Positions 1,799-41,663 of a stretch of DNA of 64,000 bases are shown here, one piece after another. Position 1 is the first letter of the stretch, and the number at the start of each line of letters is the position of its first letter. Origin of the DNA: Adlercreutzia sp. ZJ304 (lineage in GTDB: Bacteria > Actinomycetota > Coriobacteriia > Coriobacteriales > Eggerthellaceae); contig NZ_JAAKEG010000006.1 in NCBI RefSeq assembly GCF_011039075.1, positions 62,001 through 126,000 of the forward strand, in the 5' to 3' direction. The notes under the pieces were generated by a model. That model ran no database searches. It was given only the letters and a program-made list of their open reading frames with translations, and was not told where the DNA came from. The translations under genes were made by a program, and so were the position numbers.

Positions 1799-1812
1799 GT
1801 TTGGTTTTGTGC

Positions 1813-1834: not shown

Positions 1835-1861
1835 AAGCGGTTTCGATGTTAGGAGATTACC

Positions 1862-5872: not shown

Positions 5873-6439
5873 GTGCCGTACAATATTGAGAAGATCAAGG
5901 TAAAAGTTTGGAAGGCGAGGGGTTTGGCGAACGCGCTCACCATATGCAGGATCGCGCTTAGCGTCGCGCTGCTAATACCGGTCGCTCTCTCGCCCGCCTT
6001 CCTTATCATCTACACCATTGCCGGTCTAACGGACATGCTCGATGGTTTTGTGGCAAGAAGGACGGGTACGGAAAGCAAGCTTGGCGCCATGCTCGACAGT
6101 GTTGCGGATCTTATTCTCGTCATCGTTTGTCTGGTTAAGATACTGCCCGTTGTCTCGATGCCGCCGTGGCTGTGGATTTGGGTCGCAGCGATAGCTGTTG
6201 TGAAAATAGCAAATGTGATAAGTGGCTTTGTGGTGGCAAAGCGCATGGTCATGCTCCATACCACCGCCAATAAAGTTGCAGGGCTCGTAACGTTTCTTGT
6301 GCCTTTCGCCATCCCGTTCTTTGGCATTGTAGCCCCGGCTATCCCCGCGTGCGCCGCAGCAACATTCGCGGCAGTCCAAGAAGGACACTTCATTAGAACA
6401 GGCTCTGCCGTGATTATCAACATAAACCATAAGATTTAA
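5873..6439 (+). CDS. CDP-alcohol phosphatidyltransferase family protein
   Basis: Integral membrane enzyme that would transfer a phosphatidyl group from a CDP-activated lipid to an alcohol in phospholipid synthesis. The CAP motif is intact: DGFVARRTGTESKLGAMLDSVAD (about residues 56-78), with the two catalytic Asp pairs, the Arg and the Gly in register. Five or six hydrophobic helices surround it. The first start codon is a GTG with no ribosome site; the same frame stays open to about 5725 without an ATG, so the 5' end may have been altered by deletion. The 3' end overlaps the convergent regulator gene by 23 bp, and the last 15 residues look non-native. Likely functional core, doubtful ends. 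Confidence 0.75.
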   Translation: MPYNIEKIKVKVWKARGLANALTICRIALSVALLIPVALSPAFLIIYTIAGLTDMLDGFVARRTGTESKLGAMLDSVADLILVIVCLVKILPVVSMPPWLWIWVAAIAVVKIANVISGFVVAKRMVMLHTTANKVAGLVTFLVPFAIPFFGIVAPAIPACAAATFAAVQEGHFIRTGSAVIININHKI

Positions 6440-7781
6440 GGCGTCGATATATAGTTGTTTTACTCATACCAAGAATTTGAGCAGCCTGAACCATATCGTG
6501 ACCGGCTGTTTCGTAGGCCCTGATAATCTGTTCGCGTTCTTGTTCTTTAAGCGATAGCAACTTTAGTTTAGATTTATCTGTTCGAGATTCAGCATAGATG
6601 ATATGAGTGGGTAAATCTTCTTGGGTAATTATTTCCTCTTCGCATACGCGACATGCATGTTTAATAGCAGATTTAAGCTCATGGATATTGCCAGGCCAAT
6701 CATAAGAGAGTAGAACTTCTCCTGCTTTTTCAGATATAGCTAATGGCTTTTTCCCTCTTTTTGCAAGAAACTGTTCTGCAATTAATGTTGATAAAGGCAA
6801 TATATCTACCGGACGATCTCGAAGAGGAGGTAACAAAATAACTTCATGCGCAATGTGATAGTAAAAGTTATCGCGTGCCTTTTTATTTATTTGCCTGTTC
6901 ATAGAGGTAATTAATCGAAAGTTAGCGGGAATTGAATGTGTACTTCCAAGAGGTCTAATGAGATTTTCATCAAATATCTGTATGAAAATTGGACGTACGT
7001 CAGGATCTAACATATCAACATTGTCTAGATAAAGAGTACCTCCATTAATTTTTGATAAAGCCCCAAGATGAGTAATATTATTTTCTTGAAACCCAGCAAG
7101 AAATCTTATGGCATGTTTTGCATTCAATGAGGCACAATTCACTTTAAGGAATAGCCCTGCAGGATTTGAAGCGGTGTGAATAGCCTCAGCAAAAAGTTGC
7201 TTTCCAGTACCCACTTCACCAACAATTAAAATTCGTCTATTTGTGGGAGAAAAAAGAAGAGATCTTGTGATTGCTGAAGACAAGTTTGGACTGGTGCCCA
7301 CAATATCAAAAAACGTGCTTAAATTTGAATGATCAGGATTAGACTCATTTATCATATCTGGACCGGTTGATAATTTAAGACCGGATGGTTCAAAGTCTAT
7401 ATACTTAAAAGCAGATCTAATTAATACAAGAGATACAAAAGATTCATCAGACTCTTTTTGCAGTATTGGTCTACTTGAAAATCGATACGGAGGAATCTTT
7501 CCGTATAACACAATATTACTTATGGGGTAACGTTGAAGTACAAGAGATACCAATTCAGCTTTCATATTGGGAAGGTCTTGAATTCTATTGACTTTATTAA
7601 ATGACTGATCCTGTATTAAAGAAGATCCAAAATTATGTCTAGCTATTACATTTCCTCTAGAGTCAACAAGAAAAGCTAAAACATCCATTGATCGACCAAG
7701 AATCTCAAAAAGACTTAACCATAGTGAAGATACACCATCATTTTCTTGCTTGTATTGTTCTAAGTAGATAGATTCTTGCAT
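6417..7781 (-). CDS. NtrC-like AAA+ transcriptional regulator, GAFTGA-less (regulator A)
   Basis: 454 aa. An N-terminal sensor region (about 1-150, no named fold) is followed by an AAA+ domain with Walker A GEVGTGKQLF (about residues 189-198), a Walker B-like GGTLYLDNVD, and an arginine-finger region, then a Fis-type helix-turn-helix ending in MSKTTIYRRLKSYGL. The sigma-54 contact loop GAFTGA is absent, and the Walker B Glu is replaced by Asn. So although it has the architecture of bacterial enhancer-binding proteins, it probably neither remodels sigma-54 polymerase nor hydrolyses ATP normally; TyrR-like action is one alternative. It is encoded 15 bp after a paralog and divergent from the MFS/molybdoenzyme operon, which it likely regulates. 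Confidence 0.85.
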   Translation of the reverse strand: MQESIYLEQYKQENDGVSSLWLSLFEILGRSMDVLAFLVDSRGNVIARHNFGSSLIQDQSFNKVNRIQDLPNMKAELVSLVLQRYPISNIVLYGKIPPYRFSSRPILQKESDESFVSLVLIRSAFKYIDFEPSGLKLSTGPDMINESNPDHSNLSTFFDIVGTSPNLSSAITRSLLFSPTNRRILIVGEVGTGKQLFAEAIHTASNPAGLFLKVNCASLNAKHAIRFLAGFQENNITHLGALSKINGGTLYLDNVDMLDPDVRPIFIQIFDENLIRPLGSTHSIPANFRLITSMNRQINKKARDNFYYHIAHEVILLPPLRDRPVDILPLSTLIAEQFLAKRGKKPLAISEKAGEVLLSYDWPGNIHELKSAIKHACRVCEEEIITQEDLPTHIIYAESRTDKSKLKLLSLKEQEREQIIRAYETAGHDMVQAAQILGMSKTTIYRRLKSYGLC

Positions 7782-7796
7782 TTGTTAAAAACCTCT

Positions 7797-9140
7797 TTAA
7801 ATTCGTTTTTTAAGATATTTGTACAAAGTCGATCTTCCAATACCAAGAATTTCAGCAGCTTTGCTTACGTTATTACCAGTTGACTGCAATACACTAGCTA
7901 TATGTTTATCCCTCATTTGAGCGATATTAATATTGCTCATAAGTGATTGCGAATCAGCTTGACCGGCATAATTATCTCCACAAACATAGTCTGGTAGATC
8001 ATGGGTAGTAATAATATTGTTTCGGCAAATAGTGCTAGCTGAAGTAAGCACTATTTCCAATTCTCTAATATTACCAGGCCAAGAATACTTCGTAAGAACC
8101 TGAAGCGCGGAATCGGAAATAGTTGTTGCTTGAGAATGTTTTGAAGGACGATGATTCATAAGAATTTGCTTGCTAAGCAACGGGATGTCATTTCTTCGTT
8201 GCGAAAGAGAAGGAATCATAATTTCATCTTGAGCTATGCGATAAAACAGTTCTGGCAAAAAATCGTTTTTCTCGTTATTTAGCGCAAAGCACGATCTAAG
8301 TTTTGTAGATGCGGTCGCAATAATTCTAAACTTGGTAGGTATTATTTTGAAATCCATATCACGAACAATTTCATGGTGGTCTAAAGCTCTAACGAAAAGA
8401 GGCTGGAGGTTCAGAGGCAATTCATCAATGTTTCCAAGCAACAACGTGCCACCGTTAGCTATTTCCAATAATCCTCGCGTCGCTTTTCCGTGATTCATAC
8501 TTCCAAAGAGATATTCGACCGGATCAATAAGATGTAACGTCGAACAATTGCACGCCACTAAAGATGCATTGGGCGCAGTTCCATTGCAAATTGCACGCGC
8601 AAATGAAGTTTTCCCTACTCCAGAATCGCCCATTATCAAGATGTTCATAGATGGTTCAGTGCACAATGATTGCGCACGTTCTTTAGCAGCCATAAAAAGG
8701 TGGTTTTGACCTATTAATTCATCAAAATTGTTTTTTGATCGATATGCATTATCTGGCTTAAGTGCTTCCTCGGATGCAGTAATAAAACTAAATGCGATAA
8801 AAGATCCTGATAGGGATGCATCATTAATTAAAGATGCATTTATACGCAAAGAACTTGCATCAGAGGTTTTATTTACAAATTCAAATTCTACATTCTTCAG
8901 TGTTTTACTACTAAGAATTTGATCGATAAGAGCACCGCAATCTTTTATAAATGACCGTATATTTTGTTGCTTAGGCGAATTATTATTATTATTTATTAGT
9001 CTTTGGGCAATTTCATTTGCAGCGACAATTGTTCCATAGGAATCAGTAATTACCAGCCCGAACTCCACCATAGAAAGCATAGTCTTAACTAAAGAAGAAG
9101 CTTCGATTGTAGGTTTTGAACGAATAGAATTTGCCAACAA
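7797..9140 (-). CDS. PAS-containing NtrC-like AAA+ regulator, degenerate Walker B (regulator B)
   Basis: 447 aa. Residues about 18-115 look like a PAS sensor (VEFGLVITDSYGTIVAANEIAQRL). The AAA+ domain has an intact Walker A (GDSGVGKTSFA, about 166-176). Where GAFTGA should lie the sequence reads GSMNHGKATRG, and Walker B is GGTLLLGNIDEL, with the key Asp changed to Gly. The C-terminus is a Fis-type HTH (VSKAAEILGIGRSTLYKYLKKR). It heads a two-gene operon with regulator A. A PAS ligand, possibly an aromatic compound, could control DNA binding. The duplicated pair, both lacking sigma-54 contact residues, suits a phylum in which rpoN is generally absent. Confidence 0.85.
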   Translation of the reverse strand: MLANSIRSKPTIEASSLVKTMLSMVEFGLVITDSYGTIVAANEIAQRLINNNNNSPKQQNIRSFIKDCGALIDQILSSKTLKNVEFEFVNKTSDASSLRINASLINDASLSGSFIAFSFITASEEALKPDNAYRSKNNFDELIGQNHLFMAAKERAQSLCTEPSMNILIMGDSGVGKTSFARAICNGTAPNASLVACNCSTLHLIDPVEYLFGSMNHGKATRGLLEIANGGTLLLGNIDELPLNLQPLFVRALDHHEIVRDMDFKIIPTKFRIIATASTKLRSCFALNNEKNDFLPELFYRIAQDEIMIPSLSQRRNDIPLLSKQILMNHRPSKHSQATTISDSALQVLTKYSWPGNIRELEIVLTSASTICRNNIITTHDLPDYVCGDNYAGQADSQSLMSNINIAQMRDKHIASVLQSTGNNVSKAAEILGIGRSTLYKYLKKRI

Positions 9141-9584
9141 AGTCTCCTTAGAATTAACAACGCTCTATTAAATATGAGGCTGAAATATGCCTCTCAAGCG
9201 CAATCACTCGACCCCATTGAATTACTATGGACATAGTAATTCAAAATGAGACAAAAATATCTATAAACAATAGTTAAGTCGAAGTTTTATCTCATAAGTT
9301 TCCAATAAGCGCAAATCAAATATTCATAATGAGACATTTTTCAAAAACATTCTCAAAAACTTTTTTATTAAAAAGTGTGAATCTTTAAATCTAATTACCA
9401 TTTGCTTAAAGATCAGCTGATTAGAAGAGAAGCCTACTGCTAATCCTAGGCTAGGCAGGAAAGCTTAATAGTCTTTTTAGTGAAAGGGGGAGATTTCTAA
9501 GTCGCTCAGTATCCATAAATATTTTTGAGTACTGAGTTGACAGGTTAAGTAGATATTTCCAGTTATATTGCGAAAGGTTTACAA
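9141..9584. promoter_or_regulatory. Divergent control region with operator palindrome
   Basis: AT-rich 444-bp gap between the regulator pair and the MFS/molybdoenzyme operon. At 9219-9228 and 9233-9242 lies a perfect 10-bp inverted repeat, GAATTACTAT and ATAGTAATTC, with 4 bases between, a good dimeric operator. The octamer AATGAGAC occurs just after it (about 9245) and again near 9331. A further AAAGGGGGAG stretch near 9483 precedes no gene. A start site for the MFS gene (GAAAGG, 8 bases before ATG) ends the region. Which regulator binds is inferred from position only. Confidence 0.5.
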
Positions 9585-10856
9585 ATGCCAGAAGACATAA
9601 AAAGGAAAGTATCTTACTATGCTATTGCAGTAGCATTTGCAGGCATGCTGACCCAATTTACCTTAATTTTTTGTCAAAGTTCGTTCTCGCAAGTTATACC
9701 TGACTTCCTAGAGAGTACAGGATTAACAAAAACAGATTCAGGTGTTATTACTTCAACTTTCGGTATCGTATATGCTCTTAGTGGCATAGTCTGGGGTTGG
9801 GTAAATGACCGAATTGGCTCGCGTTCAACGTACGCCATTATGGGTCTTGGTGGCTCTTTATTCATGATTCTGTTTGCATTGCTATCCACGAATCTTTTAG
9901 TTGCTACTTTGCTATACAGCATCATGGGATTTATGATTGGCGGCATGGCCGCTGCATCATTGCCGAAACTTATTGGTAATTGGTTTACACCTTCCCGCCG
10001 TGGTTTTGGCATGACCATTGCTAATGTTGGTGGCGTTCTCTGCGGCGCACTTATTGGCGTGTTGGTCCCGCAAATTCTTATTGCTACAAACAGTTGGCGT
10101 ACCACGTTGACTACTGTAGGCATAATTGCTGCGGTAATTGCTGTTGTTTATATCCTTATCATGAGGAATAAACCATCCGATAAAGGGCTTCTTCCTTTTG
10201 GTCCAGAAGAAGAAGTACGTGCTCAAGTTGAAGATCAAAAGAAAATAGAAAAAGAAAAGAAGCCAGGAATTCGTGCCTATCTTGATGCGCTCAAGCTAAA
10301 AAACATCTGGATTCTTGGAATCATGTATATTTTCTTCCAGTTTGCATACTCCGGAACTAATTCCTACCTTGCTACATCTTTCCGCGAATTGGGTCAAGAT
10401 GCGGTAATGGCTGGTTTCGCTGTAACCATCTATAACATTGCACAATTCATTGGTCAGCTTTTCTGGGGTAACTTATCTGACCGCATTCCTCGTAAATGGG
10501 CTATGGCCGGAGCATGCTTCACATGGGGAGTTTTTGGTGCCGTATTCTGCTTTACCTATGGTGCAGACATCATAATCATGTACGTTATAGTGTTTTTCAT
10601 GGGTATTGGTCTGGGTGCCATGTCAGTTAAAAATGCCATCAACATTGACTATATTCCTGGAGAAATCAGAGGCACAGGCGCAGGGGTGGTAGCAACCTAT
10701 GCGGTTATTGGTCGCTATCTTGGCCCAATGCTTACTGCTGTTCTATGGGAATCTGTAGGACTCCAATGGGCGTTCTTGGCAATGGGTGGTGCAATGATAT
10801 TAGCTGGTTTAACCGCTTTGCTACTTCCAAAAATTACAAAGAAAGAAGCAATTTAG
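9585..10856 (+). CDS. MFS transporter (OFA-like)
   Basis: 423 aa, 12 predicted membrane helices with a central charged loop (EEEVRAQVEDQKKIEKEKK, about 206-224). The MFS signature between helices 2 and 3 is present (WGWVNDRIGSRSTYAIMG) and repeats in the second half (WGNLSDRIPRKWAMAG). It is the first gene of the operon, 84 bp ahead of the molybdoenzyme gene. Gordonibacter catechol dehydroxylase loci are reported to carry an MFS gene beside a molybdoenzyme, so import or exchange of the enzyme's substrate and product is a reasonable guess. The substrate is not readable from the sequence. Confidence 0.88.
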   Translation: MPEDIKRKVSYYAIAVAFAGMLTQFTLIFCQSSFSQVIPDFLESTGLTKTDSGVITSTFGIVYALSGIVWGWVNDRIGSRSTYAIMGLGGSLFMILFALLSTNLLVATLLYSIMGFMIGGMAAASLPKLIGNWFTPSRRGFGMTIANVGGVLCGALIGVLVPQILIATNSWRTTLTTVGIIAAVIAVVYILIMRNKPSDKGLLPFGPEEEVRAQVEDQKKIEKEKKPGIRAYLDALKLKNIWILGIMYIFFQFAYSGTNSYLATSFRELGQDAVMAGFAVTIYNIAQFIGQLFWGNLSDRIPRKWAMAGACFTWGVFGAVFCFTYGADIIIMYVIVFFMGIGLGAMSVKNAINIDYIPGEIRGTGAGVVATYAVIGRYLGPMLTAVLWESVGLQWAFLAMGGAMILAGLTALLLPKITKKEAI

Positions 10857-10940
10857 TTGAAAAGCCAGCTTCGCGATGAGCAAATATAGATGTCTATAAA
10901 TATGTTTTTAGGACATTGAGGAGAAAGAGATAACAGAGAT

Positions 10941-13271
10941 ATGGATATAGATCTTAGTAAACCTTATGTTTCTGGTACTCAAGATGATTATGTGGTGAGA
11001 TCATGTGCATGGTCTCCTCCTGGAGATCATCCAGTTGGATGCGGCGTAAAACTGCACGTGAAAGATGGAATGCTTATTGATGTAGAAGGTGACGAAGCGC
11101 ATCCGATTTCTCAGGGTCGTTTGTGCGTACGCTGTCTCGATCTTCCAGAGTATGTTCATAATCCTCAACGCATTATTTACCCAATGAGACGTGTGGGAGA
11201 ACGTGGAGAAAACAAATGGGAGCGCATCACTTGGGATGAAGCAATTGATGAAATCTATGAAAAGACCAAGGCGCTTCAAGAAAAATACGGAAAGCAAACT
11301 GTAGTAGTTTTTGCTGGCACTGGTCGCGAAGCTACCCTTTATTATTGCCCATTAGCTTTTGCCGTGTTTGGAACTCCAAACGCATGCTTTGCTATGTCTG
11401 GATTTGCTTGTTACGGTCCTCGCCGTTCTATTGCGTACTATCTGTTTGGAACTGGCTATCCAGAGGTCGATTTTGCGGGGTATTTTGCAGACCGCTATGA
11501 TCATCCCGGTTACGAAGTACCAAAATATATTATTTGCTGGGGAAAACAACCACTTTATTCAAATCCTGATGGTTTTCCCGGATTCTCTATCATTGACATG
11601 ATGAAACGTGGATCCAAGATCATCTCTATTGATCCACAAGTCACTTGGTTGGCAGCACATTCTGAATATCATGTGCAGTTAAGACCTGGTACTGATGCTG
11701 CATTAGCTTTGGCTATGCTTAATATCATCATCAATGAGGATCTTTATGATCATGACTTCGTAGAGAACTGGTGCTATGGTTTTGAAGATCTTCGTGAACG
11801 CGTACAGGAATATACTCCTGAGCGTGTAGCTAATATTTGCTGGATAGATGAACAACTCATCTATGATGTAACGTATGCTTATGCAAAGAACCATCCTTCC
11901 GCTATTCAATGGGGACTCGCTTTTGACCAGACTTCCACTGGTGGACAAGCAGGTCAAGCAGTACTTTCCTTGATGGCAATTACCGGTAATTTGGATGTCC
12001 CGGGCGGACAAACACTGGGGCCACGCACCGTATTCTTAGGCAAATGGCGCTTCGATACCGCACAGTATCTTGATGAGGGTATGTTTGATCAAGTTCGTAT
12101 TGGTCAAAAGTACCCCGGATTCTTGAACGCTATGAGCACCGCACAACCTGACGAGCTGCTTAAGACCTTAGAAACCGATGAGCCTTATCCTCTGCGCATG
12201 GGATTTTTCCAGAGCTCAAATTTCTTGACTGCTACTTGCAACGTAGCGCCACAGCGTTGGTATAAGGCTTTACAGAAACTTGAGTTCAACGTAGTAACCG
12301 ATCTATTCATGACACCAACTGCCGTTGCTTTAGCAGACATATTCTTGCCATTAGCATCGCATGCAGAGCATGTGGGTGTAGTTACTCCACACTTTGGACG
12401 CAATCTACATTTCATGGGTGCAATGAATAAGGCTTTACAAGTTGGCGAATGCAAGTCTGATATTGAGGTATGTATCACATTAGGAAAACGTTTCAACCCT
12501 GATGCTTGGCCGTGGGATACTGCAGAAGAGTTCTTTGATGAGCAGTTAAAGTTAGCTTTCCCTTTCGGTTTGGATAAACTTCAGCATGATATTACGTATT
12601 CACCGGATCTTACATACAAAAAGTACGAGACAGGCGGATTGAGATCAGACGGAAAACCAGGATTTGAAACCACAACTGGTAAGTGTGAGCTGAAATCAAC
12701 TATTTACCCATTGTTTGGTGAAGATCCACTGCCGTTTTATAAAGAGCCTCATTACAGCCCTTATAGCCAACCTGAATTAGCTGAAGAATATCCCTTGATA
12801 CTCACAACAGGAGGTCGTAAGCTCACCTCTTTCCACTCAGAGCATCGTCAGCTAGAAACACTGCGTGAGATTGATATGTATCCAGTGGTAAGCATCAATA
12901 CGGAAACTGCTGCTGCGCATGGTATTCAAGATGGTGACTGGGTTTGCATTGAAAACATGTTTGGTCATGCTATTGAAAAGGCCCGTGTCACTCCTTTGAT
13001 TCCTGAGAGAATTGTTCATGCATCTCATGGTTGGTGGTACCCAGAGCAAGAAGGTGCCGAACCTAATTTGTTTGGCAATTGGAAATCTAATATCAATACA
13101 TTACTTCCAAATAGCTGCGTAAGTGCTCTTGGATTTGGATCCATTCATAAGGATATGATTTGCAAAATTTATCGCGTAGATAGCCTCGATGAATTTGGAC
13201 CTACTGGTGGACTTTTTGAAGAGGGTCGTTGGTTATATCCGGAGTATGGAGAGGAGCACCTAAATGGATAA
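10941..13271 (+). CDS. Molybdopterin-dependent oxidoreductase (acetylene hydratase / catechol dehydroxylase-like)
   Basis: 776-aa member of the DMSO-reductase family binding bis-MGD molybdenum or tungsten. Visible parts: N-terminal cysteines C22, C34, C62, C65; WERITWDEAIDEI (about 94-106); the cofactor-binding core with FAGTGREA; FADIFLPL-type motifs (ALADIFLPLASHAEHVG); and the C-terminal cap domain (about 610-776) with HGIQDGDWVCIENMFG. No Tat signal, so cytoplasmic. The usual CxxCxxxC cluster motif is missing: a GDHPVGCG turn replaces it, as in the paralog at the left edge. The downstream ferredoxin-like gene overlaps by 8 bp and probably supplies electrons. A reductive dehydroxylase or hydratase acting on a plant-derived aromatic is the leading idea; exact chemistry is unknown. 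No strong ribosome site lies right before the ATG. Confidence 0.88.
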   Translation: MDIDLSKPYVSGTQDDYVVRSCAWSPPGDHPVGCGVKLHVKDGMLIDVEGDEAHPISQGRLCVRCLDLPEYVHNPQRIIYPMRRVGERGENKWERITWDEAIDEIYEKTKALQEKYGKQTVVVFAGTGREATLYYCPLAFAVFGTPNACFAMSGFACYGPRRSIAYYLFGTGYPEVDFAGYFADRYDHPGYEVPKYIICWGKQPLYSNPDGFPGFSIIDMMKRGSKIISIDPQVTWLAAHSEYHVQLRPGTDAALALAMLNIIINEDLYDHDFVENWCYGFEDLRERVQEYTPERVANICWIDEQLIYDVTYAYAKNHPSAIQWGLAFDQTSTGGQAGQAVLSLMAITGNLDVPGGQTLGPRTVFLGKWRFDTAQYLDEGMFDQVRIGQKYPGFLNAMSTAQPDELLKTLETDEPYPLRMGFFQSSNFLTATCNVAPQRWYKALQKLEFNVVTDLFMTPTAVALADIFLPLASHAEHVGVVTPHFGRNLHFMGAMNKALQVGECKSDIEVCITLGKRFNPDAWPWDTAEEFFDEQLKLAFPFGLDKLQHDITYSPDLTYKKYETGGLRSDGKPGFETTTGKCELKSTIYPLFGEDPLPFYKEPHYSPYSQPELAEEYPLILTTGGRKLTSFHSEHRQLETLREIDMYPVVSINTETAAAHGIQDGDWVCIENMFGHAIEKARVTPLIPERIVHASHGWWYPEQEGAEPNLFGNWKSNINTLLPNSCVSALGFGSIHKDMICKIYRVDSLDEFGPTGGLFEEGRWLYPEYGEEHLNG

Positions 13272-13599
13272 CGCTCTATTAGTCAATTATGAGTATTGTT
13301 TTGGTTGCCATTCCTGCGAAGTTGCATGTAAAAAATCGCATAATTTGCCTCTAGGTGAATGGGGAATCAAGGTGCAAGAAACTACTCCTCAAAAACTCGA
13401 AAATGGGCGCTGGATGTGGGATTTCGTTCCCTACATTACTGAGAAATGTGACTTTTGCGCAGATCGCGTAAAAGAAGGAAAAAAGCCTTCCTGCGTACAG
13501 CATTGCTTGGCTTTCTGTATCGAATATGGAACTATTGAAGAAATGGTCAAACGTCTTGGTGAAGTAAAGGGCAAATGCGAGATCCTCATTCCACGTTAA
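13264..13599 (+). CDS. Ferredoxin-like 4Fe-4S electron-transfer protein
   Basis: 111 aa. Two cysteine groups are visible: CFGCHSCEVACKKSHNLP (residues about 12-29) and CDFCADRVKEGKKPSCVQHC (about 63-82), the pattern of DMSO-reductase B-type subunits cut down to roughly half size. GGAGAGGAG lies before the ATG, and the gene overlaps the molybdoenzyme gene by 8 bp. It would carry electrons to the catalytic subunit as a small soluble partner. Full B subunits have four clusters; this one can hold at most two. Confidence 0.88.
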   Translation: MDNALLVNYEYCFGCHSCEVACKKSHNLPLGEWGIKVQETTPQKLENGRWMWDFVPYITEKCDFCADRVKEGKKPSCVQHCLAFCIEYGTIEEMVKRLGEVKGKCEILIPR

Positions 13600-13624
13600 G
13601 GTAGTCAACCTAATCTACAAGGCT

Positions 13625-13654
13625 TGTGGGTCAGTATATAGGTACTGACCCACA
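13625..13654 (+). promoter_or_regulatory. 12-bp inverted repeat upstream of the small membrane gene
   Basis: Perfect arms TGTGGGTCAGTA and TACTGACCCACA around a 6-base loop. It lies between the ferredoxin gene and the 46-aa gene, with no U-run. Likely an mRNA processing or stabilising hairpin inside the operon; a partial terminator is possible. Confidence 0.55.
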
Positions 13655-13674
13655 GCAAAACAGGAGGAAGTATC

Positions 13675-13815
13675 GTGGAGTTTTGGCAAATAGTGCTGAT
13701 TGGTATCATTCTGGTGGTTATCAATGCAGCTGTACTGACTGCGGATCTTCGATTTTGGAAGAAATTCTTCGAGACGAGAAACAAACGTCACAAGCATATC
13801 AAGACTAATCGTTAG
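13675..13815 (+). CDS. 46-aa single-pass membrane peptide
   Basis: Starts with GTG, with a near-perfect AGGAGG site 8 bases upstream, and ends 21 bp before the LigB-AMMECR1 gene. Residues about 4-23 form one hydrophobic helix (IVLIGIILVVINAAVLTA), followed by a strongly basic tail (FWKKFFETRNKRHKHIK). By the positive-inside rule the tail is cytoplasmic. It could anchor or organise the molybdoenzyme/ferredoxin pair at the membrane; nothing in the sequence proves that. No family recognised. Confidence 0.7.
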   Translation: MEFWQIVLIGIILVVINAAVLTADLRFWKKFFETRNKRHKHIKTNR

Positions 13816-13836
13816 TTTGCTATTTAGGAATCTGTC

Positions 13837-15246
13837 ATGAGAACCATCGTTGGGCGTTTTATAATGCCACATAGTCCCAATACTATTCCATGGCTTAGCA
13901 AAGGCCATTATAAAGAAGCGACACAAACTACTACTGCTTGTGAAGAAATTGGTAGTAGGATAGGACAGCTAAAACCAGATACAATAATTGTTATCAGCGC
14001 TCATGCCCCATCAGTAGGAAATTATTTCTACGTTCCTAAGCGGAAAATTATGTATGGAAATACGGGGGAGTTTTCCTTCCGTCAACATATGATAAAAAAA
14101 GAACCAGCGTGGAATTTTATAGATAAACTCGTAGAAGTTGGTAAGAGAAATAGTTGCCCTATTACCACCTTTGAAAACAATCCAAGACTTCGTCGTAAGC
14201 ACAAGCTTAACGGAAGCTTCGATCTTGCTACCTATATCCCTCTCTATTTCGTAGAACAGTTTTGGCAAGATTATCGACTGGTAACTATTTCTCTTAGTGA
14301 TCTACCTCCTTCAGATCATTATCTCTGCGGCACAGTTATCGAACGCACTATTCAACAGCTAGAAGGAACGTATGTAATCATCGCAAGTGCCGAGCTATCC
14401 CACAAAACAACAGAAGATAGTCCGTATGGTTATGTTGAAGATGGTCTAATTTTCAATGGATTAGTGTGTCAGTCGATACTGGATGGAAATGTAAATAAAC
14501 TACTCTCTTTAGATTACGCAAGAAGGAATCATGTGGGTCAGTGTGGAGTAGATGCCATCGCTATGCTCTATGGAACTGGCAATAGCATGAAGTTCTCGGG
14601 TGATATTCTTTCTTACGAGCATACTTTTGGTATTGGAATGGTGGTTGCTTCACTTACTCACACTAACAAGAAAAGCAAGACTACCAATTCAGCAATCAAG
14701 GCACGTTCTTTGGAACTTACAGCGGACAAAAGATCGCGTGAATCTGAACCCGTACGTCTTGCTCGAAAGGCCATCGATTACTACCTTAGAACTGGAGAAA
14801 CTCTCGATGACCCGCCTCCTTCATCTATTCCAGCTCTTATGGAGCCTTCGGGTGTATTTATTTCATTAGTAAAAAATGGAAAATGGAGAGGATTTTACGG
14901 CAACCCTGATCCCACAGAATTCAGTGCAGCTCACGACATCATAGATTATGCGTTGACGGCTGTTATCGAAAACGATATTGGTCCAATTAGTAGAAAAGAA
15001 CTCAGAGAAATAGATATTGTAGTGGAATTGGTTACCTCTATTGAACCAGTTTCAGATATGAGCATGTATGACTGTAATAGCTACGGAGTGCTTGTAAAGT
15101 ATCGCCAAACAGAAGGCATTATTGTCGCCAATGCGCCTAGCATTGCGAATACTGAAAGGCAATATGAGGCAGCATTACGAAATGCTGGTGCGAAGAAAAA
15201 CAGTAAAGTTCGACGATATAGATTTACTACTGAACGTTTTGAATAG
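13837..15246 (+). CDS. LigB-type extradiol dioxygenase domain fused to AMMECR1 domain
   Basis: 469 aa in two halves. Residues about 1-275 match the class III extradiol ring-cleavage / Memo fold, with VISAHAP (about 50-56) and the ASAELSHKTTEDSPYGY segment carrying metal-ligand-type His and Glu. Residues about 300-460 match AMMECR1 (ARKAIDYYLRTGE, then PSGVFISLVKNGKWRGFYGNP). This pairing is the protein A/B part of the AmmeMemoRadiSam set, but no radical SAM partner lies nearby. In an anaerobe an oxygen-dependent ring cleavage is unlikely, so the domain may act as a metal-dependent hydrolase or isomerase. It sits in the middle of the molybdoenzyme operon with an AGGAATCTGTC-ATG start. Confidence 0.85.
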   Translation: MRTIVGRFIMPHSPNTIPWLSKGHYKEATQTTTACEEIGSRIGQLKPDTIIVISAHAPSVGNYFYVPKRKIMYGNTGEFSFRQHMIKKEPAWNFIDKLVEVGKRNSCPITTFENNPRLRRKHKLNGSFDLATYIPLYFVEQFWQDYRLVTISLSDLPPSDHYLCGTVIERTIQQLEGTYVIIASAELSHKTTEDSPYGYVEDGLIFNGLVCQSILDGNVNKLLSLDYARRNHVGQCGVDAIAMLYGTGNSMKFSGDILSYEHTFGIGMVVASLTHTNKKSKTTNSAIKARSLELTADKRSRESEPVRLARKAIDYYLRTGETLDDPPPSSIPALMEPSGVFISLVKNGKWRGFYGNPDPTEFSAAHDIIDYALTAVIENDIGPISRKELREIDIVVELVTSIEPVSDMSMYDCNSYGVLVKYRQTEGIIVANAPSIANTERQYEAALRNAGAKKNSKVRRYRFTTERFE

Positions 15247-15284
15247 CAATCAAATTTCAATCGTTTTGAAAAGGCTGTGATTAT

Positions 15285-16667
15285 ATGAGCGAAAATCAAA
15301 AAATCGCAATATCACGAAAAATTGCACGATATGTTACGAACATGAGAATAGACGATGTGTATGAAGGAGGCGTTGAACGAGCGAAACAATGTTTCCTTGA
15401 TACGTTAGGATTAGCTCTTGGCGCTAAAAATGAGCCTGCTGTCCGGTTAATGAAAAAGACTATCGACGAGATGGGGTCCACTGGTCCATCTCTTGTTCTG
15501 GGTTTTGATGAACATATGGCAACGGTTTTGGCAGCACGAATTAATGGCGTAGCGGCTCATGTTGCCGACTATGACGATAATTCTTCTTTATCAACTACAC
15601 ATCCTTCCTGCGTACTTGTTCCGGCATGTTATGGAGCAGCAGAGTATGTGAATGCAAGTGGAGTAAAAATGCTCGAAGGGTTTATTGTTGGCTTTGAAGT
15701 TAGTTGCTCGCTTGGGCGTGCAGCTGGCTGGGCTCACTATAACCTAGGATGGCATCCTACATCTACCTTTGGCACTTTAGCAGCCACTTGCGCTGTGGCT
15801 AAGATTATGGGGCTTTCTGAGAATGAAATCGTAAATGCATTTGGAATTGCAAGTTCAAGTGTTGGTGGTATTCGCCAGAATTTTGGAACAATGTGCAAAA
15901 GCTATCATGCGGGCAATGCTGCATCTGCAGCATTATTTGCTTGTATTTTGGCAAAAAATGGCTATGACGCTGCAGAAGATGCCATGGAAGGTAAGAGTGG
16001 TTATTTCAGTACAATGAATTTTACTGACGGCACCATGGAAGCGTTTGATTGGCTTGGTCGAGATTATACAGAAACACTCGGTCATCAATTCTTTAAACTT
16101 TATCCTTCATGTGCGATGGCGCATACTCCGATCGAAGCTGCTCGACAATTGGTAAAAGATAACGGAATTGATTTTGATTCAATTGAATCTATTGATTGTT
16201 ATATGCGTCCTGTTGTACCAACACAGCTTATTTACTCAGATCCAAAAACAGGATTAGAAGCAAAATTCAGCCTTGAATACAATGTTGCGTCAATGTTGAT
16301 AACTGGCGAATGCTCACCAGTTTCTTTTGAAGATGAAAATGTAGGAAATCCAAAAGTGCGCGCTTTTATGCCTAAAGTACATATGCACACTGATGAGCGT
16401 CTTGAAGATATCGTAAAACAAAAGGGAATATTGGCTCCTTGCATAGTCAAAATAGCCTATGATAACGGGAAAACAGTATCGCTTCTAAAAGAAACCGCTA
16501 GTGGTGGTTTTGATGATCCAGCTACATGGGAAGACCTTGAAATCAAATTCCATGCTGTGGTATGCAAAGTAATTGAAGATGAGCAAGAAAAGCAAATTGT
16601 ACGTCTCTGTAAATCACTCGATCAAATCGAGATTAATGAATTACAGAAGGCCTTGGAAATTCATTAA
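15285..16667 (+). CDS. MmgE/PrpD family dehydratase/isomerase
   Basis: 460 aa, the normal length for the family that includes 2-methylcitrate dehydratase, cis-aconitate decarboxylase and iminodisuccinate epimerase. Landmarks: FLDTLGLALGAKNEP near 36-50, the active-site stretch ADYDDNSSLSTTHPSCVLVPA (about 98-118), GWHPTSTFGTLAA, FGTMCKSYHAGNAA, and LYPSCAMAHTPIEAARQL. It lacks an iron-sulphur cluster and works on small hydroxy- or unsaturated polycarboxylates. Placed ahead of a TRAP operon, it suggests that a carboxylate substrate is imported and then dehydrated, decarboxylated or isomerised. Which reaction cannot be told. Confidence 0.9.
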   Translation: MSENQKIAISRKIARYVTNMRIDDVYEGGVERAKQCFLDTLGLALGAKNEPAVRLMKKTIDEMGSTGPSLVLGFDEHMATVLAARINGVAAHVADYDDNSSLSTTHPSCVLVPACYGAAEYVNASGVKMLEGFIVGFEVSCSLGRAAGWAHYNLGWHPTSTFGTLAATCAVAKIMGLSENEIVNAFGIASSSVGGIRQNFGTMCKSYHAGNAASAALFACILAKNGYDAAEDAMEGKSGYFSTMNFTDGTMEAFDWLGRDYTETLGHQFFKLYPSCAMAHTPIEAARQLVKDNGIDFDSIESIDCYMRPVVPTQLIYSDPKTGLEAKFSLEYNVASMLITGECSPVSFEDENVGNPKVRAFMPKVHMHTDERLEDIVKQKGILAPCIVKIAYDNGKTVSLLKETASGGFDDPATWEDLEIKFHAVVCKVIEDEQEKQIVRLCKSLDQIEINELQKALEIH

Positions 16668-16701
16668 TCTTAATAAAATTCCAATAGAAAGGTGCTTGCT
16701 T

Positions 16702-17013
16702 GTGAACGGGACACCAAATGAATGCATAGGAACGTGTGCAAATACAGTTTGTGAAAAAAAGCATATTCCTAATACAAAACCAACATTTCACATGAAGTGT
16801 AATAACTGCGAAGCAGAGTTCGATATTCTATCCTCCTATGCTGAATTGGATAAAGAATTATGCCCAGAATGCGGTTCTAATGACGTAAAAGATATTTTTG
16901 TTTCTTATCCATTGGATGGTCCCGGATTTCAAGAAGGTTATAGCACCGAGAAGCTTTCTGTCTGCGGAATGGAAGATATAAATAACGAGCTTTGTCTTTT
17001 AACAGACCGTTAA
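16702..17013 (+). CDS. Zinc-ribbon protein, FmdB-like
   Basis: 103 aa from a GTG preceded by GAAAGGTG; the frame is open further upstream but would overlap the MmgE/PrpD gene. Residues about 35-60 form a zinc ribbon with CxxC pairs (KCNNCEAEF and LCPECGSND), the pattern of FmdB-type regulatory proteins. Extra cysteines at the N-terminus (ECIGTCANTVCEKK) may bind a second metal. It lies between the enzyme and the TRAP genes, so it belongs to the same operon, perhaps as a small regulator or chaperone. Confidence 0.75.
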   Translation: MNGTPNECIGTCANTVCEKKHIPNTKPTFHMKCNNCEAEFDILSSYAELDKELCPECGSNDVKDIFVSYPLDGPGFQEGYSTEKLSVCGMEDINNELCLLTDR

Positions 17014-17047
17014 CAAGTGGATGCGCTTGTTGAAAGAAGGAATGATC

Positions 17048-18136
17048 ATGCACAGACAATCTAAAAACTTATTTTTAGTATGCATGCTTGCAATGGCAGG
17101 CTGTCTCTTGATCCTGCCTGGATGTGCTGCAACTTCAAGCGACCGCATAAAAAACATGGAGGAAAGCAAAGATACTGTCTATAACCTTGCGTACGCTACC
17201 AATAATTCCTCCACCTCAGAGATGTATCAGAATGTTGAGCATGAACTTCTGGCAAGAATTACCGAAGCCACAGACGGTCGGATAGTATTTACAGAATACC
17301 TCGCATCGTCATTGGTTAAATCTGGTGAAGGCAAGGAATCAGTTCTCAACGATATTGTCGATGTGGTATTTGATTCTCCGTCATGGTATGGAGGAGCATT
17401 CCCTCTTACTACAACTACGGAACTTGCCTTGGGTTTAGAATCGGGCAAAGTAATGTCTTATGTCTATAGGGATCTTATAGAAGAATTTCAACCTGAAGAA
17501 TATAAGGGTCTCAAAGTTTTATTGCCCATGTCTTCTGGATCACGCTTAATCATATCAACTGATCCGATTAAGTCGTTAGAAGATTTACAAAACAAGCAAA
17601 TCCGCGCAAGTGCGACAACCAGCAAGTTGGTTCGTGAGTGGGGCGCAGTACCTACTACTATCAGCAGCAGTGATGTATATGAAGCTTTACAAAACAATCT
17701 CATTAGCGGTGGTGTATTTTCTTATGAGAGCATGATAGAGAGTAGGTATTACGATATCTGTGATTTCATTACTGATCTTGCGGCAACTCAAACGAATACT
17801 GTTATCTACATGAGTCAAGATAAATTTGATGCACTACCTGAAGACATTCAACAAATTATCGAAGAAACTGCTGATGAGTTTTTCGAAGAAAAAGCCTCAG
17901 GATGGTGGGCATCGTTTAGAGATGAAGCTCTTCGCATTGCTAAAGAGAACAATCCAAATATTGAGTGGATAGAGTTGGACGATGAAGAGGTAGCACGATG
18001 GGTAGCAGCAGCAGATGATTACACTCAGGAGTATGCAGAGCAACTCGATAGCTTAGGCTATAATGGTCAAGAAATTCTTAACTGGATAAAAGAGCGCTAT
18101 GCTCATTATAAACAACTCTATCCGGATTCTCTTTAA
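17048..18136 (+). CDS. dctP: TRAP transporter substrate-binding lipoprotein
   Basis: 362 aa from an ATG seven bases after AAGGA. A lipoprotein signal is visible (basic start, hydrophobic stretch, lipobox LPGC at about 18-21), so the mature protein is tethered to the outer face of the membrane. The body follows the DctP family: an early GRIVFTEYLASSLV-type segment, then SLEDLQNKQIRASAT and a conserved Arg region that usually contacts a substrate carboxylate. With the next two genes it forms a complete TRAP system for a carboxylate-containing substrate, driven by an ion gradient. Confidence 0.9.
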   Translation: MHRQSKNLFLVCMLAMAGCLLILPGCAATSSDRIKNMEESKDTVYNLAYATNNSSTSEMYQNVEHELLARITEATDGRIVFTEYLASSLVKSGEGKESVLNDIVDVVFDSPSWYGGAFPLTTTTELALGLESGKVMSYVYRDLIEEFQPEEYKGLKVLLPMSSGSRLIISTDPIKSLEDLQNKQIRASATTSKLVREWGAVPTTISSSDVYEALQNNLISGGVFSYESMIESRYYDICDFITDLAATQTNTVIYMSQDKFDALPEDIQQIIEETADEFFEEKASGWWASFRDEALRIAKENNPNIEWIELDDEEVARWVAAADDYTQEYAEQLDSLGYNGQEILNWIKERYAHYKQLYPDSL

Positions 18137-18181
18137 TAAATATCTACTGTTATATCCAGTCGTAGCTGAGTAAGGAAATAC

Positions 18182-18748
18182 ATGAATGCCGAAAAAAACA
18201 TAGAGAAGGTTTTTAGCGTTCTTGAAAAGATTGCTGGCACTATCATTTTACTTTTAGCCGTTTTGACTGTTGTTAATGTAATCATGAGACGACTGTTTAA
18301 TTTACCAATATTTGGAGTGACTGAAATCGTTGAGTATGGAACATTGTTAGCAATGTGCTTAGCAGCAGGCAATTCTTCTTTCAAACGAGTTCATCCTTCA
18401 GTAAATATTCTTGTCGACCGACTCAAAAAGAGAACTCGTTATATAGTGTCTGCATTTGTTGATGGGATTTGTGCACTTGTTATGAGCTATACCGGTATTG
18501 GTCTAATCCCGAATGCTCTTACCTCAATTAGTGAAAGCCGAGTCACAGAATCGCTAGGTATACCATATTCGATCGTGTATGGACTTATCATTATTTGTGT
18601 ACTTGCAGTTGCTGTCGCCTATTTGCTGCTTGTTTTCTTTGATATAAGGGCTTTTGCGAAAAAGGAGCCGAATCTAAATCTAATTGAAAAGAATGGAGCA
18701 GATATAAATATAGACTCAACGCTCGGTGATAAACATAAAACAAACTAA
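18182..18748 (+). CDS. dctQ: TRAP transporter small permease
   Basis: 188 aa with four hydrophobic helices, the first containing TVVNVIMRRLFNLPIFG and followed by TEIVEYGTLLAMCLAAGNSSFKR, both typical of DctQ. The start is preceded by AAGGAAATAC. It bridges the substrate-binding protein and the large permease. The hydrophilic C-terminal tail (about 160-188) is longer than usual. Confidence 0.9.
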   Translation: MNAEKNIEKVFSVLEKIAGTIILLLAVLTVVNVIMRRLFNLPIFGVTEIVEYGTLLAMCLAAGNSSFKRVHPSVNILVDRLKKRTRYIVSAFVDGICALVMSYTGIGLIPNALTSISESRVTESLGIPYSIVYGLIIICVLAVAVAYLLLVFFDIRAFAKKEPNLNLIEKNGADINIDSTLGDKHKTN

Positions 18749-18826
18749 GCAAATCTCATTTAAGCAATGATCAAAAATATGGAATGAAATTCGACAAACG
18801 TGCGAGCATGACAGAGAGGAGCTCTC

Positions 18827-20137
18827 ATGTTTGAAATCATGGTAGGAATTGCGGGTATTCTTATTTTCTTAGCACTTCTAATTACAAGTTTACCCGTTGC
18901 TTTTTCAATGCTATTAGTAGGTGTGGTTGGGGTTATTGTACTAAGATCACCAGTAGCAGCCATACATATGATTAACACAAGTTTTATTAGCTCTTTTGCT
19001 GCGTATACCACAACGGTAATACCAATGTTTATTTTAATGGGTGCTATTGCGGGATATTCTGGCATTAGTTCAGGATTGATTAATGCTATTAGCACCTGTA
19101 TTGGTCACTTAAGAGGCGGCGTTGCCATGGGGGTGCAAGCAATTTGCGCTGCCTTTGGTGCAGTCTGCGGTTCCATACCAGCAACATTAGCAACGGTAGG
19201 AAAAATTGCATACCCAGATATGGAGAAACTAGGATATGATCAAAAGCTTTCAACGGGTGCACTCTGTGCCGGATCAACTCTGGCAGTACTAATTCCTCCG
19301 AGTATTACTTGTATAACGTATTCTATGGTGACAACTGAATCTGTTAGCTCTCTGTTTCTTTCTATCATCATGGCTGGCATTGTTATGACGATCATCTATA
19401 TGGTTTGTATAAAAATTTGGGCTACAGTAAAACCAGAAGCTGCACCCCGAAGCAAGCGTTATAGCGGGAAAGAACGTTGGAATGCTATTAGAAATGGTAA
19501 TTTTGTAGAAATTCTTGTGATATTCGTTATCAGCATGGGTGGTCTTTTCACCGGACTGTTTACCGCAACTGAGGCAGGAGCTGTCGGCGTAATTGGTGTC
19601 ATAATTGTTACGTTTATAACAAAGAAGATTACATGGAAAAAACTTGTTGAGTCAATGATTGAAACACTCAACCTTTCGATTACGATTTATTTCTTATTAG
19701 CATGCGCTTCTGTTTTTGGAAAATTTGTATCAATATCTGGCATACCCTATGCTTTGGCGCAGTGGGTTACTATGAGTGCATTTCCAGCCGGAGTAATTTT
19801 GCTTCTTATTACGTTAACCTTTTTGGTGTTAGGTATGGTAATAGATGGCACAGCAATGATATTGCTGCTTGTTCCAATATTTTATCCAATTATTACAGGA
19901 CCATTAGGACTAAACGGGTTGTGGTTTGGTGTCTATGTAGTAGTAGTTTTAGGTCTTGCGATGATGTCTCCGCCAATTGCAATCAATACTTATATTATGC
20001 AAAACATATCGGGTGTTCCTCTTCAAAAGATTTTTGTCGGAGTGGTTCCGTTTATAATTTGCAATTTATTAATGTGTGTATTGTTGATTCTTTTTCCAGA
20101 CTTCTTCTTGCTTGTTCCAAATCTTATGGGAATTTAA
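18827..20137 (+). CDS. dctM: TRAP transporter large permease
   Basis: 436 aa with about 12 hydrophobic segments and the DctM signatures: VIPMFILMGAIAGYSGIS early on, GAVCGSIPATLATVGKIAYPDMEKLGY, and LIPPSITCITYSMVTTESVSSLF. GAGGAG lies just before the ATG. It forms the transport path with the small permease and is the last gene of the operon that began at 9585. A hairpin about 150 bp downstream may end the transcript. Confidence 0.93.
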   Translation: MFEIMVGIAGILIFLALLITSLPVAFSMLLVGVVGVIVLRSPVAAIHMINTSFISSFAAYTTTVIPMFILMGAIAGYSGISSGLINAISTCIGHLRGGVAMGVQAICAAFGAVCGSIPATLATVGKIAYPDMEKLGYDQKLSTGALCAGSTLAVLIPPSITCITYSMVTTESVSSLFLSIIMAGIVMTIIYMVCIKIWATVKPEAAPRSKRYSGKERWNAIRNGNFVEILVIFVISMGGLFTGLFTATEAGAVGVIGVIIVTFITKKITWKKLVESMIETLNLSITIYFLLACASVFGKFVSISGIPYALAQWVTMSAFPAGVILLLITLTFLVLGMVIDGTAMILLLVPIFYPIITGPLGLNGLWFGVYVVVVLGLAMMSPPIAINTYIMQNISGVPLQKIFVGVVPFIICNLLMCVLLILFPDFFLLVPNLMGI

Positions 20138-20694
20138 AGAATGGAGTGAATGATTAAACAGTCTGAACTAAAACAGTACGCCCTAAAACATTCGAAACTT
20201 ACGCCTTTTATGTTTGCGATGCTAAGGAATGTCAGATAAGTTCATAAAAGAACTAAGGAATGTACGAGTTTGTTAACTCTCGTAATTAGAAACAGGTTAC
20301 AGAGGTACTTAACCTAGCAGATCGCCTTTTGTAACCTGTTTTTAGGATTTTCCTCATTTTTCTATTGTTTTGACAATTTGTGCGTTCCCCTCTTGGATTA
20401 GAATCTTACTTCCTTTCAAAGCTATGAAAATTTGACAGTCGAAGACGTAATGTGTGATTCTAATGTTTCTAGAAAAAGAATCCTATAGCACTTGGAAGAA
20501 AAAATGTAATTGAAGTAGATAGTACCTACAGTTTATATAAGTTACCAGTTCAGAATACGTATTTAAGTGATTTGCCAACACAATTTTAGCGAATGCTGTT
20601 TTTGGAATTGAATAATTAGTAAGATGCAATACGAAATTTAAAGTTTAAATTTTCAATTACTCCACATGTCAGCTCATACATATGGTCTGACAAA
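20138..20694. other. Intergenic region with a 12-bp inverted repeat
   Basis: No coding sequence is convincing here. Perfect arms AAACAGGTTACA (20290-20301) and TGTAACCTGTTT (20330-20341) enclose a 28-base loop and run into a few more T residues, so this is probably the operon terminator. The rest is AT-rich with no further structure that I could identify. Confidence 0.5.
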
Positions 20695-20922
20695 TTATAC
20701 TGAAGGTGGCTTTGGCGCTGATGGCGCACATGGTGCTGAGGGCACACTTGGAGCTGATGGGTTTGGTGGCATATTACCTTTAGCAGCTTGTTCAGTGAGT
20801 TCAGATAGATCGGTGCCGCAATATGGACAAATCGGAGGATACAAGCTGCCAATAGGACTAATGGAACCACCACATTCTAGACATTCTACAGGAATGGCCA
20901 CTGAAGCAGGTCTAAAGCACAT
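20695..20922 (-). CDS. Small zinc-ribbon protein with Pro/Ser-rich tail
   Basis: 75 aa; AGAGGT lies just before the ATG. Residues about 14-38 carry two CxxC pairs (CLECGG and CPYCG), a zinc ribbon. The C-terminal 25 residues are a repetitive PSAPSVPSAPCAPSAP run, disordered and unusual. Followed on the same strand by nothing close; the next zinc-ribbon gene (21077-21277) lies upstream. Function unknown. Confidence 0.7.
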   Translation of the reverse strand: MCFRPASVAIPVECLECGGSISPIGSLYPPICPYCGTDLSELTEQAAKGNMPPNPSAPSVPSAPCAPSAPKPPSV

Positions 20923-21076
20923 AAGTACCTCTTTTCAATAGGAAAATCTTTATTCAAATATAAAGCGTCAAATAAGGTCGCTTACTTGATTTCAGAGATA
21001 AACAAAAATTGAACGATAGATTGTCTCAATTTGAAAAATAACAATGCATCAATTAAGAAAGTTGATAGGATGGTAT

Positions 21077-21277
21077 TTATTCGTTGTCGGATTTTTCCAA
21101 AGTCTCAGCTTTACGTTTTCTCCAATCGTCTATAGCTTTTTGTTTATCAACTTCTGTGAATTTTCTTCCGCAAGATACACATTCATTCATTAGCAAAAAA
21201 GCGCGGTTTCCACAACTTTCGCACCATATGAACTTTGGTTTGCAATTATCGCAACCTGGCAAACACACATAACACAT
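21077..21277 (-). CDS. Small cysteine-rich zinc-ribbon protein
   Basis: 66 aa, ATG preceded by AAAGGTGATG. Eight or more cysteines are arranged as CxxC pairs (CYVC, CDNC, CESCG, CVSCG), enough for two zinc sites, followed by a basic-acidic helical tail (DKQKAIDDWRKRKAETLEKSDNE). It is probably cotranscribed with the zinc-ribbon gene downstream. Such pairs may bind nucleic acid or partner proteins; no named family recognised. Confidence 0.72.
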   Translation of the reverse strand: MCYVCLPGCDNCKPKFIWCESCGNRAFLLMNECVSCGRKFTEVDKQKAIDDWRKRKAETLEKSDNE

Positions 21278-34462: not shown

Positions 34463-34463
34463 A

Positions 34464-34529: not shown

Positions 34530-34570
34530 CTGGTCTTTCAAGGGCAAAGCCTTCAATGCGCACCCGCATA

Positions 34571-35890: not shown

Positions 35891-35929
<39 letters not shown>

Positions 35930-41649: not shown

Positions 41650-41663
41650 GCCTTACAATGCGT

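Follow-up and report, generated by a model that had tools for sequence, protein, structure and literature searches.

A low-GC island of Adlercreutzia sp. ZJ304 with a Gordonibacter-type catechol-dehydroxylase-like enzyme: a possible pathway for uptake and reductive dehydroxylation

Catechol dehydroxylases of the Gordonibacter type have no twin-arginine translocation (Tat) signal, a small 4Fe-4S partner and an adjacent carrier of the major facilitator superfamily (MFS), and acetylene hydratase is the closest characterised relative of the catechol dehydroxylases (PMC7028382). The eam cluster for ellagic acid in Gordonibacter and Ellagibacter is a single induced cluster that encodes, besides dehydroxylases, a non-redox enzyme as well as MFS carriers (PMC12771579). 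The Eggerthella-type enzymes require accessory genes for activity (PMC11887054). Gut Eggerthellaceae each encode dozens of uncharacterised dehydroxylase-like enzymes, and the substrates are the bottleneck. Here, a locus around such an enzyme was analysed in Adlercreutzia sp. ZJ304 (Eggerthellaceae; genome of 2.0 Mb, 98% complete), within a stretch of 64,000 nucleotides (contig NZ_JAAKEG010000006.1, positions 62,001 to 126,000), referred to as the window. The locus may be a substrate-inducible island that serves to take up an anionic, probably phenolic compound and to dehydroxylate it reductively, a reading to which a probability of about 0.55 was given. The type of the core enzyme was already known, while the helper genes around it make up a new set. 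The features of the island, in window positions, were as follows:

6417-7781, minus strand: AAA+ NtrC-family-like regulator 2, Fis-type helix-turn-helix, no GAFTGA motif (DhaR/PrdR-like NCBIfam matches below cut-off; GC content at third codon positions, GC3, 0.23)
7797-9140, minus strand: AAA+ NtrC-family-like regulator 1, Fis-type helix-turn-helix, no GAFTGA motif (PF00158, PF25601, PF02954)
9217-9244, no strand: perfect 28-bp palindrome, TTGAATTACTATG-GA-CATAGTAATTCAA, in the divergent intergenic region (100% complementary)
9585-10856, plus strand: MFS carrier of the organic-anion type (PF07690, 9e-54)
10941-13271, plus strand: bis-molybdopterin guanine dinucleotide (bis-MGD) molybdo/tungsto-enzyme, Gordonibacter-type catechol-dehydroxylase-like, 776 aa (PF00384/PF01568/PF04879)
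13264-13599, plus strand: small electron-transfer protein (ferredoxin), 111 aa, with two 4Fe-4S motifs (domain searches)
13625-13654, plus strand: 12-bp perfect inverted repeat between ferredoxin and membrane peptide, RNA hairpin without T-run (z = -4.4)
13675-13815, plus strand: single-span membrane peptide, 46 aa, GTG start (reading of the open reading frame, ORF)
13837-15246, plus strand: diverged LigB/Memo-AMMECR1 fusion (PF02900, 3e-20; PF01871, 3e-18)
15285-16667, plus strand: MmgE/PrpD-family enzyme, IDS-epimerase/cis-aconitate-decarboxylase-like (PF03972, 9e-64)
16702 (likely GTG start, behind AAAGG)-17013, plus strand: FmdB-type zinc-ribbon protein, with homologues in the same place at loci L056, L062 and L132 (41-45%)
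17021 (start more likely 17042 or 17048)-18136, plus strand: substrate-binding lipoprotein DctP of a tripartite ATP-independent periplasmic (TRAP) transporter (4e-35; lipobox LPGC)
18182-18748, plus strand: TRAP small permease DctQ (2e-17)
18827-20137, plus strand: TRAP large permease DctM (6e-81)
20286-20345, plus strand: terminator-like hairpin after DctM (z = -4.4)
20695-20922, minus strand: zinc-ribbon protein of the MCFRP type, 75 aa, a recurrent neighbour of enzymes of this class
21077-21277, minus strand: another small zinc-ribbon protein (66 aa) of the MCYVC...CDNCKPK type, with homologues at related loci

The molybdoenzyme began with MDIDLSKPYVSGTQDDYVVRSCAW and carried no Tat signal. 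Its closest solved structure was acetylene hydratase (2e7z, 2e-83), with thiosulfate reductase and formate dehydrogenases far behind. Alignment of 12 sequences showed that C22, C34, C62, C65 and C157 were invariant; C157 aligned with Cys141, the tungsten ligand of acetylene hydratase, and is a candidate metal ligand. The AlphaFold model of the enzyme was poor, with a predicted local distance difference test score (pLDDT) of 57. Two comparison sets were searched, one of 140 genomes of the family (including Gordonibacter pamelaeae, Gordonibacter sp. 28C, Raoultibacter, Paraeggerthella and Adlercreutzia) and one of about 85,000 genomes of named species. The best relatives in the family were 55-60% identical; in the broad set they were found in Sporomusa acidovorans (62%) and Desulfosporosinus (60%), and also in Selenomonadales, Peptococcaceae and Eggerthellaceae (55-61%). 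Identity to the Gordonibacter homologues was about 47-57%.

The maximum-likelihood tree (63 rows) showed that the window enzyme was sister to those of loci L055, L056, L133, L132 and L062, with support 99/96. These loci were all from Eggerthellaceae or labelled Coriobacteriaceae, and the Bacillota enzymes formed a separate supported group. Known Gordonibacter homologues lay within the same clade as the window enzyme, the characterised catechol dehydroxylases not being individually labelled on the tree. A likeness to Gordonibacter catechol dehydroxylase loci had been noticed in a preliminary description of the window, and it was borne out by the absent Tat signal, the small 4Fe-4S partner, the adjacent MFS carrier and the phylogeny. 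Membership of the enzyme in this class is very likely on the sequence comparisons, and, given the class, reductive dehydroxylation would be its fairly probable reaction. The nearest match of the MFS carrier that adjoined a homologous enzyme was from Desulfosporosinus (38%). The same contig carried two more paralogues of this enzyme (51% and 56%), each with its ferredoxin, within about 25 kb upstream of the operon, at 49607-51841 and at 60128-62323, the second of these regions reaching window position 323.

The same preliminary description had listed ten genes in 9585-20137, and ORF calls and domain searches recovered all of them, in that order and on the plus strand. It had also spoken of an AT-rich run, which proved to be real but larger than described: the low-GC block was sharply bounded at about 6417-21277 and also held the two divergent AAA+ regulators and the two small convergent zinc-ribbon genes. 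GC3 was 0.23-0.37 for the genes from the regulators through the zinc ribbons, against 0.57-0.79 for most other window genes, and this uniformly low GC3 suggests that regulators, ten genes and zinc ribbons form one natural unit. Gaps between the operon genes were 7-84 bp, and the genes of enzyme and ferredoxin overlapped by 8 bp; the short gaps, together with the terminator-like hairpin after DctM, make a single transcription unit for 9585-20137 plausible. The zinc-ribbon ORF as first listed overlapped PrpD, and its true start is later, likely the GTG at 16702. The strong hairpin at 13625-13654 is a candidate attenuator or element of mRNA processing or stability; an Rfam search gave no match in the region, this hairpin included.

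The gene neighbours of 152 distinct enzyme homologues (at least 40% identical) were counted within 8 kb around each. Ferredoxin was present beside 149, MFS carriers beside 41, NtrC-like regulators beside 5 (all Bacillota) and FmdB zinc ribbons beside 3 (L056, L062 and L132), all within the sister clade. LigB-AMMECR1 was found at 0 of the 152 and so was TRAP, in agreement with the earlier view that these two are foreign to such loci, and 371 kb of AMMECR1-centred loci, used as a control, contained no such molybdoenzyme. PrpD had been thought equally foreign, and here that view failed. It stood beside 32 of the 152 homologues, a number inflated by loci chosen in part by their PrpD. PrpD genes occurred in only 28 of the 140 family genomes; of 47 such genes in Eggerthellaceae, 24 lay within 3.5 kb of an enzyme of this kind or its ferredoxin, and 12 came immediately after the ferredoxin gene in the same orientation. 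Loci with PrpD in this position included those of G. pamelaeae (L106/L191), Raoultibacter (L163) and Adlercreutzia faecimuris (L170). The operons of the sister clade carry the iron-sulphur (FeS) protein, a zinc ribbon and/or PrpD, with PrpD present in L055, L062 and L132; in L055, an Amidohydro_2 gene was divergent to the operon of molybdoenzyme (MOLY), FeS protein and PrpD. Amidohydro_2 is the superfamily of the eam-type decarboxylases.

Conservation of the gene set was therefore partial: the full set of ten was not found in any other genome examined, but the MOLY-FeS-zinc ribbon-PrpD core was conserved in the sister clade. By these counts, PrpD is a recurring partner of the enzyme class and part of a recurring module, and LigB-AMMECR1 and TRAP are what sets the operon apart. 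PrpD likely acts in the same pathway as the molybdoenzyme. Its linkage to dehydroxylase-like enzymes was not mentioned in the literature searched; it marks a subset of these enzymes whose substrate needs a step of the dehydratase, epimerase or decarboxylase type, and so narrows the candidate compounds. A divergent pair of dehydroxylase-like enzymes, one of them followed by ferredoxin, PrpD and MFS carriers, was also observed (L057, L058, L060, L106, L163, L170 and L191); this pair is conserved in Gordonibacter, Raoultibacter and A. faecimuris and is apparently uncharacterised.

The window PrpD had both superfamily domains and kept the active-site His/Asp/Lys motifs (DYDD...HPS, GWHPT and K-x2-HAG). 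Its nearest match in the PDB was IDS-epimerase (2e-65), and cis-aconitate decarboxylase (2e-34) was another characterised relative. Assignment as 2-methylcitrate dehydratase, the PrpD proper, was rejected (47 bits against an equivalog cut-off of 458), and so was an origin in Negativicutes (one 33% match in 301 genomes). The protein belonged to another subfamily than the MOLY-linked PrpDs, with at most 30% identity to them (26-27% to those of the sister clade) and 34% to rhizobial ones.

The AlphaFold2 model of the LigB-AMMECR1 fusion was confident (pLDDT 86). The folds nearest to its N-terminal domain were TK2203, the aminophenol, homoprotocatechuate, gallate and DOPA extradiol dioxygenases and human MEMO1, and those nearest to its C-terminal domain were archaeal AMMECR1 proteins. 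Coriobacteriia relatives were 26-31% identical, and several of them adjoined a radical-SAM gene. No match to the radical-SAM partner (TIGR04337) was obtained in the 98%-complete host genome, with positive controls. Comparison with 18 relatives showed that H12, H56, H189 and C236 were kept and that three motifs were changed (LRGCIG to WRGFYG, ASGDLSH to ASAELSH and ECG to QCG). The Glu of ECG, lost in the window protein, aligned with an iron ligand, E251, in the beta subunit of aminophenol dioxygenase. Since hallmark motifs are changed and the radical-SAM partner is absent, the protein is a diverged copy that has probably left its ancestral function. As to its origin, nothing above 31% identity was found in the ~85,000 species, viral contigs, plasmids or the genomes of ten related-enzyme loci. 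A bolder proposal, which we hold to be improbable, is a new anaerobic pathway in which a neofunctionalised LigB/Memo-AMMECR1, without its radical-SAM partner, would perform O2-independent chemistry on a catechol-type ring or ring-derived intermediate fed by TRAP and passed via PrpD to or from the molybdoenzyme; if true, members of the AMMECR1/Memo family would for the first time have a catabolic role in bacteria. The operon in any case gives the functionally unknown AMMECR1/Memo pair a concrete metabolic context. For the 46-aa membrane peptide beside it, no relatives were found.

All three TRAP components (DctPQM) were adjacent. A DctM-type permease was present in 7 of the 140 family genomes, and the other six were at most 31% identical; being so rare and distant, the TRAP system is judged to be an import into Eggerthellaceae.

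The zinc-ribbon proteins are probably helpers of maturation or assembly. Relatives of the 66-aa protein lay beside homologous enzymes at L097, L141, L150, L148, L039 and L059. The MCFRP family is marked by the N-terminus MCFRP(A) and two CxxC pairs, and no Pfam or NCBIfam model matched it above cut-off. Its members occurred in Sporomusa, Desulfosporosinus, Moorella, Gordonibacter, Raoultibacter and A. faecimuris, and were absent from four family genomes without close enzyme relatives (G020, G064, G096 and G102). The family recurred at L129, L135, L130, L149, L163, L191 and about 80 other loci, in Actinomycetota (Eggerthellaceae) and Bacillota. In an unbiased sample, 22 of 33 MCFRP genes lay within 3 kb of an enzyme homologue (p = 3e-7 at a deliberately generous chance level of 24%), and 25 of 41 close enzyme homologues had an MCFRP gene within 3 kb, both counts being based on a regular expression that fixes MC[FWY]RP. 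The family was not exclusive to this enzyme class: several copies adjoined pyrogallol-hydroxytransferase-like enzymes, and some adjoined neither. It was not mentioned in the literature searched. By analogy, MCFRP could be the Gordonibacter-type counterpart of the Eggerthella-type accessory factors, with a role in maturation. Heterologous expression of Gordonibacter-type enzymes is difficult, and MCFRP is a testable candidate for their missing maturation factor; Gordonibacter urolithinfaciens has been published as an expression host (PMC11887054).

Sigma-54 control was rejected, with no GAFTGA in either regulator and RpoN (PF04552) absent from the genome. Relatives without GAFTGA that work with sigma-70 include TyrR and DhaR. 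In the regulators that adjoin homologous enzymes in Bacillota, the motif is present as GSFTGA or GAFTGA, and relatives of the two window regulators occurred in 36 of the 140 family genomes. The 28-bp palindrome was unique in the window (0 expected in shuffles) and is the best operator candidate for both regulators.

From the gene content, the enzyme class, the island limits, the phylogeny and the association with PrpD and zinc ribbons, we infer the following substrate type, reaction, order of steps and regulation. Membrane transport of the substrate, an anion with a carboxylate group that is probably phenolic, and of its product would fall to TRAP and the MFS carrier, with TRAP as the importer. 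The cytoplasmic bis-MGD enzyme and the two-cluster ferredoxin would reductively strip a hydroxyl group, as in the Gordonibacter-type catechol dehydroxylases, and PrpD may modify this substrate itself or a side chain of it by dehydration, epimerisation or decarboxylation, before or after dehydroxylation. The LigB-fold/AMMECR1 protein may, independently of O2, bind or process an intermediate or the aromatic ring itself, an aromatic link suggested by its nearest folds. The zinc-ribbon proteins probably serve maturation or assembly, and the two divergent AAA+ regulators, lacking the sigma-54 contact loop, would act on the palindrome. The eam cluster is a characterised precedent that makes such a multi-step layout plausible.

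This scheme has to be weighed against a rather unlikely one in which the substrate is a non-aromatic polycarboxylate: TRAP would import a hydroxy-di- or tricarboxylate (aconitate-, citrate- or tartrate-like), PrpD would dehydrate or decarboxylate it, and the molybdoenzyme would reduce, hydrate or dehydrate the product. The two characterised PrpD relatives use such acids, TRAP systems typically carry carboxylates, and the best solved match of the enzyme is a hydratase. However, the nearly constant ferredoxin partner favours electron transfer, for which acetylene hydratase has no need, the enzyme falls into the catechol-dehydroxylase clade, and the LigB fold is tied to aromatics; an aromatic substrate is modestly favoured. 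The absence of LigB-AMMECR1 and TRAP beside the enzyme elsewhere, the hairpin between the operon halves and the different PrpD subfamily would also fit two unrelated cassettes joined by transfer, MFS-enzyme-ferredoxin on one side and carboxylate catabolism by LigB-AMMECR1, PrpD and TRAP on the other, with only a promoter or neighbourhood in common. This is improbable, because the genes share one strand and a uniform GC3 and are separated by short gaps, and nothing of note resembling a promoter was matched in the junction. In addition, the sister clade links both PrpD and the FmdB zinc ribbon to the enzyme, and the FmdB gene lies downstream of PrpD, within the second half. That the island is decaying or non-functional is very improbable: its GC is low and its content mosaic, two congeners lack PrpD and TRAP, and LigB-AMMECR1 has lost hallmark residues, but all frames are open, the enzyme keeps its invariant residues and PrpD its active-site motifs, and ribosome-binding sites, palindrome and terminator are in place.

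Several points count against the dehydroxylation island. Acetylene hydratase shows that the same fold can perform a non-redox hydration. The window PrpD, no closer to the MOLY-linked than to the rhizobial PrpDs, need not have the same job, and LigB-AMMECR1 and TRAP, never seen beside the enzyme elsewhere, are possibly passengers. The island was probably acquired horizontally; here, GC of 0.41-0.49 at other loci of the host genome means that the low island GC may be host drift, and the sister enzymes, sitting in the same family, count against transfer. When the two congeners were examined for an empty site, they had no orthologue of the flanking gene of the island. Derivation of the whole island from Bacillota was rejected: Sporomusa gave the best single identity, yet the tree groups the enzyme with Eggerthellaceae. 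The island may still be of mosaic origin, the regulator type and the MFS carrier resembling Bacillota loci.

Elsewhere in the window, several N6-DNA-methylase genes and a phage-type integrase (26397-43360) formed a restriction-modification/mobile-element region adjoining the island. At 848-3466 (plus strand), the gene of a pyruvoyl-type histidine decarboxylase (PF02329, 2e-154) precedes that of an amino-acid permease, and the two are likely a histidine/histamine exchange system. At 49900-53374 (minus strand), a large subunit of 891 aa is pyrogallol-hydroxytransferase-like, its AhtL-like domain falling just short of the cut-off; with a small subunit that has 4Fe-4S and carboxypeptidase-regulatory-like domains, it makes up a candidate transhydroxylase of trihydroxybenzenes.

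Compared with known systems, acetylene hydratase of Pelobacter acetylenicus is the closest solved structure and shares the aligned metal-ligand Cys, but it has no ferredoxin subunit and catalyses hydration, and the N-terminal Cys spacing of the window enzyme differs (C22-x11-C34-x27-C62-x2-C65). With AmmeMemoRadiSam, the window shares the AMMECR1 domain and the LigB-fold Memo domain, in a fusion that other Coriobacteriia also have; it differs in the missing radical-SAM partner, the lost RGCIG motif and Memo Glu, and the place within a catabolic operon. The MOLY-FeS-zinc ribbon-PrpD operons (L132, L062, L055 and L056) have sister enzymes of 59-61% identity, the FeS protein, and the FmdB zinc ribbon and/or PrpD, whereas TRAP and LigB-AMMECR1 are absent from them, LysR-type regulators lie nearby and their PrpD is of the other subfamily. 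The eam cluster is likewise a multi-step island with a dehydroxylase, a non-redox enzyme and MFS; it has the amidohydrolase decarboxylase Eah, two dehydroxylases and a LuxR regulator, where the window has PrpD, LigB-AMMECR1, TRAP and one dehydroxylase, Eah and the second dehydroxylase being absent from the island. With the Gordonibacter-type enzymes (Dodh, Cldh, Gp Hcdh, Gs Vadh and Eadh1/2), the window shares a bis-MGD subunit that is cytoplasmic, about 780 aa long and free of a Tat signal, the small two-cluster 4Fe-4S partner, the MFS carrier and the clade; it has AAA+ NtrC-like instead of LuxR/LysR regulators, and adds LigB-AMMECR1, TRAP, the FmdB zinc ribbon and the membrane peptide.

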